Assembly (NCBI GenBank): GCA_030834965.1
Contig: JAUQWW010000039.1
Location: 1-64,000 of the forward strand
Direction: 5' to 3'
Length of the DNA: 64,000 nucleotides
Origin: Gallionellaceae bacterium
GTDB taxonomy: Bacteria; Pseudomonadota; Gammaproteobacteria; Burkholderiales; Gallionellaceae
The notes under the pieces were generated by a model that searched no databases, had not been told where the DNA came from, and saw nothing but the letters and a program-made list of their open reading frames with translations. A program made the position numbers and the translations under genes. The first letter of the stretch is position 1, and the number at the start of each line of letters is the position of its first letter. Positions 447 to 10,995 of the stretch are shown here, in pieces.

Positions 447-1724
<1,278 letters not shown>

Positions 1725-1725
1725 C

Positions 1726-2322
1726 ATGGGGCTTTTTTCGCGCGCTACGTTTTATACCACGGTCAACCAGCTGCGCGATCTGCCGCTGCACGGCGGCAAG
1801 GAAGTCGCCTTTGTCGGACGTTCCAATGCCGGCAAATCCAGTGCTATCAACACACTGGCCAACCACACCCGTTTGGCATACACCAGCAAGACTCCCGGGC
1901 GCACGCAACATCTCAATTATTTTGATCTGGGCGAGAATCGCTTTCTCGTGGACTTGCCCGGCTATGGCTACGCCAAGGTGCCACCGGATGTGAAGGCACA
2001 CTGGGAAGGTCTGCTGAGTGAGTATTTGCAAACACGCGGCGCGTTGTGTGGTCTGGTTATCATCATGGATGCGCGTCACCCGCTCACCGAGCTGGATGAA
2101 CAAATGCTGGACTGGTTTACGCCTACCGGCAAGCCGGTACATGTGCTGCTGACCAAGTCTGACAAGCTGAGCCGCCAGCAGGCGACCTTGACGTTGAATC
2201 GTGTAAAATCGCACCTCGCAGAGCATTTTCCGCATTGTTCGGCACAATTGTTTTCCAGCCTGAAGAAAATCGGTACGGATGAAGCCGAGGCGGTGATTGC
2301 CGGGTGGTTTTCCGCTGAATGA
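1726..2322 (+). CDS. engB: Ribosome biogenesis GTP-binding protein EngB/YsxC
   Basis: Small GTPase (198 aa) of the TrmE-Era-EngA-EngB family, needed for assembly of the 50S subunit. GTPase motifs in order: G1 GRSNAGKSS (about residue 30), the G2 threonine in KTPGRTQ, G3 DLPGYG, and G4 TKSDK (about residue 145). I chose the ATG one base after the hemL stop. The frame is open 40 codons further upstream, but that would run inside hemL and extend beyond the family's usual length. It sits in the normal-composition half of the junction and is followed by a non-coding region holding the small-RNA candidate. Confidence 0.95.
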
Positions 2323-2327
2323 CGGGT

Positions 2328-2367
2328 AAAAAAATGCCCTTGGCTAAAAGGGGGAAGCCAAGGGCAT
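2328..2367 (-). terminator. Intrinsic terminator of the minus-strand small RNA candidate
   Basis: Perfect 11-bp inverted repeat (ATGCCCTTGGC at 2334-2344, its complement at 2357-2367) with a 12-base loop. Read on the minus strand it runs directly into a U tract (2333-2328). On the plus strand no U tract follows the stem, so the orientation is minus. No minus-strand protein gene ends here; engB and hemB are both on the plus strand. Confidence 0.7.
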
Positions 2368-2442
2368 AAAGTGTCTTAACAGTAGGAAGGGTTAAGACAA
2401 CTCGCTCAGGGAGGAGAAACGAGAGATGATTCGCATCATCTA
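2328..2442 (-). ncRNA. Candidate stress-type small RNA with anti-Shine-Dalgarno loops
   Basis: A stretch of about 115 nt on the minus strand in the engB-hemB gap has the full layout of a trans-acting small RNA. At the 5' end, exactly where the promoter predicts initiation, is a 7-bp hairpin with a GCGA (GNRA) tetraloop (2424-2441). Next come a short CTCG/CGAG stem whose loop contains CUCCUCCC (2401-2423), a perfect 8-bp stem with loop CCUUCCUACU (2373-2398), and the terminator hairpin with loop UUCCCCCUUUUA. All three later loops are pyrimidine-rich and complementary to ribosome-binding sites. Known alphaproteobacterial RNAs with CCUCCUCCC loops are stress-induced and Hfq-linked; similarity to them is inference. 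I do not recognise this as a named family. Confidence 0.5.
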
Positions 2443-2447
2443 AGCAA

Positions 2448-2475
2448 TCAGATAAGCGAACGCTAAAATAGTTCC
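2448..2475 (-). promoter_or_regulatory. Sigma-E (ECF)-like promoter for the small RNA candidate
   Basis: On the minus strand GGAACTA (complement of 2469-2475) is followed after 16 bases by TCTGA (complement of 2448-2452). This fits the RpoE-type pattern GGAACTT-N15/16-TCTGA with one mismatch. A start 6-7 bases downstream falls at about 2441-2442, the first base of the 5' hairpin. It points away from hemB, whose start is 30 bases to the right. Confidence 0.45.
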
Positions 2476-2495: not shown

Positions 2496-3509
<1,014 letters not shown>

Positions 3510-8943: not shown

Positions 8944-10984
<2,041 letters not shown>

Positions 10985-10995
10985 GCAAGCGTGGC

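Follow-up and report, generated by a model that had tools for sequence, protein, structure and literature searches.

An RNA gene between engB and hemB

The window, meaning the whole 64,000-nucleotide stretch of Gallionellaceae DNA analysed here, carries engB (ysxC; 1726..2322; TIGR03598, 233.2 bits) and hemB (2505..3509; NF006762, 506.7 bits), both on the plus strand. The gap between them contains, on the minus strand, the gene for an anti-hemB small RNA, with a predicted transcript of about 114 nt (2328..2441) that was matched both by the Rfam model RF02837 and by a covariance model of the host's own family. The RNA overlaps neither coding sequence. engB, a conserved flank, is its convergent neighbour and hemB its divergent neighbour on the promoter side, with about 30 nt separating the -35 element from the start codon of hemB.

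That element, GGAACTA (2469..2475, minus strand), is of sigma-E type and is conserved among 30 aligned loci from the same family. The -10 element, TCTGA (2448..2452, minus strand), follows after a spacer of 16 nt, which is 16 or 17 nt in relatives. The 5′ end of the RNA (about 2441) was placed from the position of the -10 element, and coincides with a hairpin, SL0 (2424..2441; AGAUGAU-GCGA-AUCAUCU), with a GNRA loop. Downstream on the same strand lie SL1 (2401..2423), whose fully paired stem presents the anti-Shine-Dalgarno loop UUCUCCUCCCUGA, and SL2 (2372..2399), with loop CCUUCCUACU. The terminator hairpin, SL3 (2334..2367, minus strand), has a 12-bp stem and loop UCCCCCUUUU; it was seen in the fold, as helix 4 of the covariation analysis, and by a terminator scan of the gap, which reported a terminator-like site on the minus strand at 2352-2337. 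A U7 tract (2328..2334, minus strand) completes the RNA, its first U also pairing in the SL3 stem. The folding energy of the stretch was -49.8 kcal/mol (z -8.6), a value that none of 200 shuffled sequences equalled. An earlier note, made from the sequence alone, had described a promoter, a GNRA-capped hairpin, further stems and a terminator with a U tract; all were found on the minus strand where it had put them. The small RNA gene that it proposed there is borne out by the RF02837 match, the fold and the covariation described below.

Two further features of the window were observed. Positions 1-900, which contain the final part of another porphobilinogen synthase gene (128-436) and the start of hemL, have a GC content of about 72%, compared with 55-60% further on, the shift falling inside hemL. 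Recombination is a possible cause, as is a chimeric contig end, the window beginning at contig base 1. A TPP riboswitch occurs at 10889-10992 on the minus strand (55.8 bits).

Family assignment and the Burkholderia relative

The RF02837 (anti-hemB) match covered 2328-2426 on the minus strand, scored 56.1 bits where the cut-off is 49.5 (whole-window E 2e-10), and spanned the full length of the model (positions 1-81). By identity, the window RNA is an ordinary member of this catalogued family; the earlier note, which knew no family for it, was mistaken on this point. The window copy adjoins hemB on the opposite strand, as do all 30 same-family loci. SL0 lies outside the Rfam match because the 81-position match begins at 2426. 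The own-family covariance model, in whose training set the window is included, matched 2328-2455 with 111.5 bits.

The family, also called Burkholderia RNA 7, was listed earlier for B. pseudomallei (PMC3521395). Expression as a discrete RNA has been demonstrated only for its B. cenocepacia orthologue, ncS04, a 105-nt RNA documented by differential RNA-seq, 3′ RACE and Northern blot and, according to the authors, already shown to bind Hfq (PMC5688073). By qPCR, no significant difference in the ncS04 level was seen for biofilm, stationary phase, starvation, glucose medium, osmotic stress, low pH or low iron; the study also used SDS and H2O2, and describes short stress as largely without induction (PMC5688073). 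The window RNA shares with ncS04 its locus, hairpin order, SL1 loop and terminator, but has a sigma-E-type promoter, whereas most Burkholderiaceae loci have an extended -10 element. ncS35 was considered as a Burkholderia counterpart and rejected; it is without an Rfam match and is confined to Burkholderia (PMC5760752). The "Anti-HemB" of a Bradyrhizobium paper is an antibody, not the RNA.

Conservation and covariation

RF02837 matches (E 0.001) were found in 94 of 100 same-family genomes. At the 30 best-scoring of these loci, hemB was a neighbour in every case and engB in 28. Across 31 aligned sequences, 98.9% of cells were paired and double changes occurred at 14 of 26 pairs. Double-change cells numbered 79, compared with 24 in shuffled alignments; none of 500 shuffles reached 79, and the signal was lost when pairing partners were slid. 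The earlier note had named compensatory changes and a conserved promoter as what the RNA would stand or fall by, and this preset test came out in its favour. Double changes were present at 7/7 pairs of SL0, with 98.2% of its cells paired, and at 5/8 pairs of SL2. In SL1 the stem cells were 100% paired and the columns of loop UUCUCCUCCCUGA were nearly all invariant, in keeping with the anti-Shine-Dalgarno loop that had been proposed. A wider alignment gave double changes at 24 of 26 pairs, though it had been fitted to the model. Conservation is therefore greater in the loop than in the stems: most stems can vary and the SL1 loop cannot, as expected of a loop that pairs.

Additional copies were also observed. 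The same genome carries a second copy (G000:C85:12836-12928, minus strand; L033:1502-1623; 45.9 bits with the own-family model), which lacks a GGAACT promoter and is flanked by a gene for a zinc-dependent dehydrogenase and one of the YaiI family. A tandem pair of C-rich hairpin RNAs (L034:1271-1393 and 1451-1563, plus strand; 25.2 and 23.1 bits) has a phosphoglucomutase/phosphomannomutase gene on one side and a phosphatidylserine decarboxylase gene on the other. In same-family genomes, further copies (L038-L057) mostly have GGAACT-type promoters; L038, L042, L043 and L044 have a TTGACA-like -35 and a TATTCT-like -10 instead.

Promoter and sigma-E machinery

The GGAACTA/TCTGA-type element, established as the sigma-E/AlgU consensus, is conserved in position and spacing, upholding the promoter type first proposed. 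A GAAC core stood at a fixed position in the best match at 29 of 30 loci from the order and 37 of 42 hits from the class, compared with about 7.6% in shuffled upstream sequence, at a median distance before the Rfam start of 50 nt (order) and 53 nt (class). The pattern GGAACT-N15-18-TCTGA occurs at three sites in the 3.07 Mb genome, a reversed control pattern giving two. Besides that of the window, there is one where a phosphatase-like gene ends, upstream of the tmRNA, and one inside a histidine-kinase gene.

The earlier note had suggested checking for an RpoE homologue. RpoE is encoded in the genome (313.7 bits, cut-off 236), with the gene for an RseA-like protein downstream of rpoE and, read directly from the sequence, TGAACTA-N16-TCAAC upstream of it; Hfq is encoded as well (102.7 bits). 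The presence of RpoE and the positional conservation of a promoter of the type it uses suggest that the window RNA belongs to the sigma-E regulon. If so, the RNA should rise upon inactivation of the envelope anti-sigma factor.

The promoter appears to have been exchanged in one lineage. Among 29 loci (L278-L306) presumed, by inference, to be from Burkholderiaceae, the GAACT element was mostly decayed and an extended -10, TGGTATAT(G/C)AT, was present in 20. Elsewhere this motif was found in 0/31 own-family, 1/30 order and 0/40 gamma loci. Replacement of the sigma-E element in most Burkholderiaceae could explain why ncS04 is not stress-induced and is seemingly constitutive.

A different possibility is that the sigma-E-like motif of the window is itself unused, the RNA being made constitutively from a sigma-70 promoter. 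The flat expression of ncS04 (PMC5688073) and the frequency of the extended -10 in Burkholderiaceae would fit such a promoter, but the motif is absent from the own-family loci, no sigma-70-type promoter was found in the engB-hemB gap of the window, and loci of different orders retain both the GAAC element and its spacing. We regard constitutive sigma-70 transcription of the window RNA as improbable.

Comparison with RNAs of polA-engB loci

The ErsA model (Pseudomon-1, RF01719) matched the window with 26.6 bits (E 0.0023), below its cut-off of 50. Because of this sub-threshold match, a wider comparison was made across 143 genomes of the class, and 40 gammaproteobacterial loci that RF02837 matched at about 33-58 bits were retrieved. 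Of these, 34 lie beside engB and/or polA and none beside hemB; engB was convergent in 25 of 28 cases and polA co-directional in 26 of 29. Sub-threshold matches of the ErsA model in the 143 genomes were likewise at polA/engB (4/4). hemB stands in the lineage of the window where polA stands elsewhere. Outside the class but within the phylum, RF02837 scored about 31 bits or less, which is background, because unrelated control genomes also match at E 0.001; with scores this weak, alphaproteobacterial relatives were rejected.

Pseudomonas ErsA loci (n = 7) have the arrangement polA, RNA and convergent engB, with GGAACTAA or TGAACTAA followed by a TCAGA box 17 nt on. The window RNA, similarly, is convergent to engB and has a sigma-22/sigma-E type promoter; a promoter of the GGAACTAA type, a CU-rich accessible region and a C-rich terminator loop are common to both. 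They differ in that Pseudomonas has polA where the window has hemB, and in that SL1 is replaced by an open CUCCUAUGUUG stretch in ErsA. In P. aeruginosa, ErsA depends on sigma-22 and acts as a repressor of algC and oprD (PMC8395346).

The three genuine sX13 loci adjoin polA, whereas the neighbours of the window RNA are engB and hemB; engB was not found in the fetched sX13 flanks, and the sX13 promoter is not clearly of sigma-E type. The sX13 model (RF02232, cut-off 50 bits) found nothing in the engB-hemB gap at E up to 5. Both RNAs, nevertheless, consist of hairpins with C-rich loops, and those of sX13 act at G-rich motifs near start codons, loops and motifs both being needed for repression, which proceeds without Hfq (PMC3771888).

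The own-family model recovered ErsA (7/7) and sX13 (3/3), at low scores of 13.8-19.3 bits (rough E 0.001-0.05) to which the C-rich loops could contribute, and found nothing elsewhere in those 10 loci at E up to 1. Several models also converged on single RNAs. One locus (L266, G415:C33) has four tandem copies between polA and engB, each matched by RF02837 with 35.9-41.8 bits; RF02232 also matched one copy (48.3 bits, E 4e-6), and RF01719 a different one (37.1 bits, E 9e-4). The alpha-r14 model matched one of these four copies as well, and gave sub-threshold matches to gamma loci at E of about 0.001.

In E. coli, the order polA-spf-yihA(engB) is the same, and Spot 42 (RF00021) equals the polA-engB-locus RNAs in position and orientation. 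Spot 42 is controlled by CRP. Its model gave no match in the window and the own-family model did not match E. coli spf; Spot 42 was therefore rejected as a homologue for lack of sequence support. It may be a further, heavily diverged descendant, position alone speaking in favour. The double-hairpin toxic small RNA model (RF02278) was not among the Rfam matches of the window. These betaproteobacterial RNAs and the CCUCCUCCC RNAs of alphaproteobacteria resemble the window RNA in having CU-rich loops complementary to ribosome-binding sites, but have two hairpins and occupy other loci.

Taken together, locus, loops and promoter suggest that the window RNA most likely represents the branch in betaproteobacteria of the polA-engB small RNA gene called ErsA in Pseudomonas and sX13 in Xanthomonadaceae. 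It is probable, on these sequence comparisons, that anti-hemB, ErsA, sX13 and many unnamed RNAs of other orders all derive from an ancestral polA-engB RNA of the Gammaproteobacteria (betas included) with sigma-E control and anti-Shine-Dalgarno loops, the promoter having been switched in Burkholderiaceae and the gene amplified locally, to as many as four tandem copies.

The three RNAs might instead be unrelated, having converged on C-rich loops at one locus. The authors of the sX13 study saw no homologues outside Xanthomonadaceae, and no resemblance in sequence to Spot 42 or the alpha-r7 RNAs (PMC3771888); Pseudomonas ErsA, moreover, is without the SL1 hairpin form and has no direct RF02837 match. 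Against convergence stand the shared locus and orientation, the promoter type in common with ErsA, the matching of single RNAs by several models and the intermediate loci in many orders, and we consider it unlikely.

Proposed mechanism

The data are consistent with a trans-acting anti-hemB RNA whose transcription would start at an RpoE (sigma-E) promoter, run toward engB and end at an intrinsic terminator, the U tract of which suits Hfq. Assistance by Hfq is probable, binding having been reported for ncS04 only. The three hairpin loops, above all UUCUCCUCCCUGA, would pair with purine-rich ribosome-binding sites and so block translation of several mRNAs. When pairing of the loops to the starts of 53 predicted window genes was scored, only SL1 exceeded the coding controls (p 0.002), a result that is partly circular because the starts were chosen for a Shine-Dalgarno. 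Repression fits what is known of sX13, which acts through C-rich loops, and of ErsA, by analogy the closest experimental support.

The RNA could alternatively act in cis, with divergent transcription or the terminator tuning hemB or engB and the loops being incidental. Its place between the two genes, with the -35 element so near the hemB start codon, and the constant presence of hemB beside it in the family of the host would suit such a role. Against it, the RNA stays clear of both coding sequences, other gamma orders have the same kind of RNA beside polA and never hemB (0/40), additional copies elsewhere in relatives mostly keep a CUCC-rich loop, and loop conservation exceeds that of the stems. 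Action in cis is thus quite improbable. For the trans-acting reading as a whole, in which an RpoE-driven anti-hemB RNA represses translation via its loops and shares descent with ErsA and sX13, we estimate a probability of roughly 0.7.

The RNA itself was catalogued already; what matters is the link joining anti-hemB, ErsA and sX13. No paper naming both sX13 and ErsA was found in a search that was short on subscription journals, and the link may be published. The sX13 study had left open whether related small RNAs exist at the polA loci of other bacteria (PMC3771888), and the comparison answers yes for many orders. By locus and loops and, for two of them, by promoter type, three RNAs that were studied apart in Burkholderia, Pseudomonas and Xanthomonas seem to be a single gene. 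This predicts sigma-E control in most lineages and its loss in most Burkholderiaceae, a forecast that would be cheaply testable.
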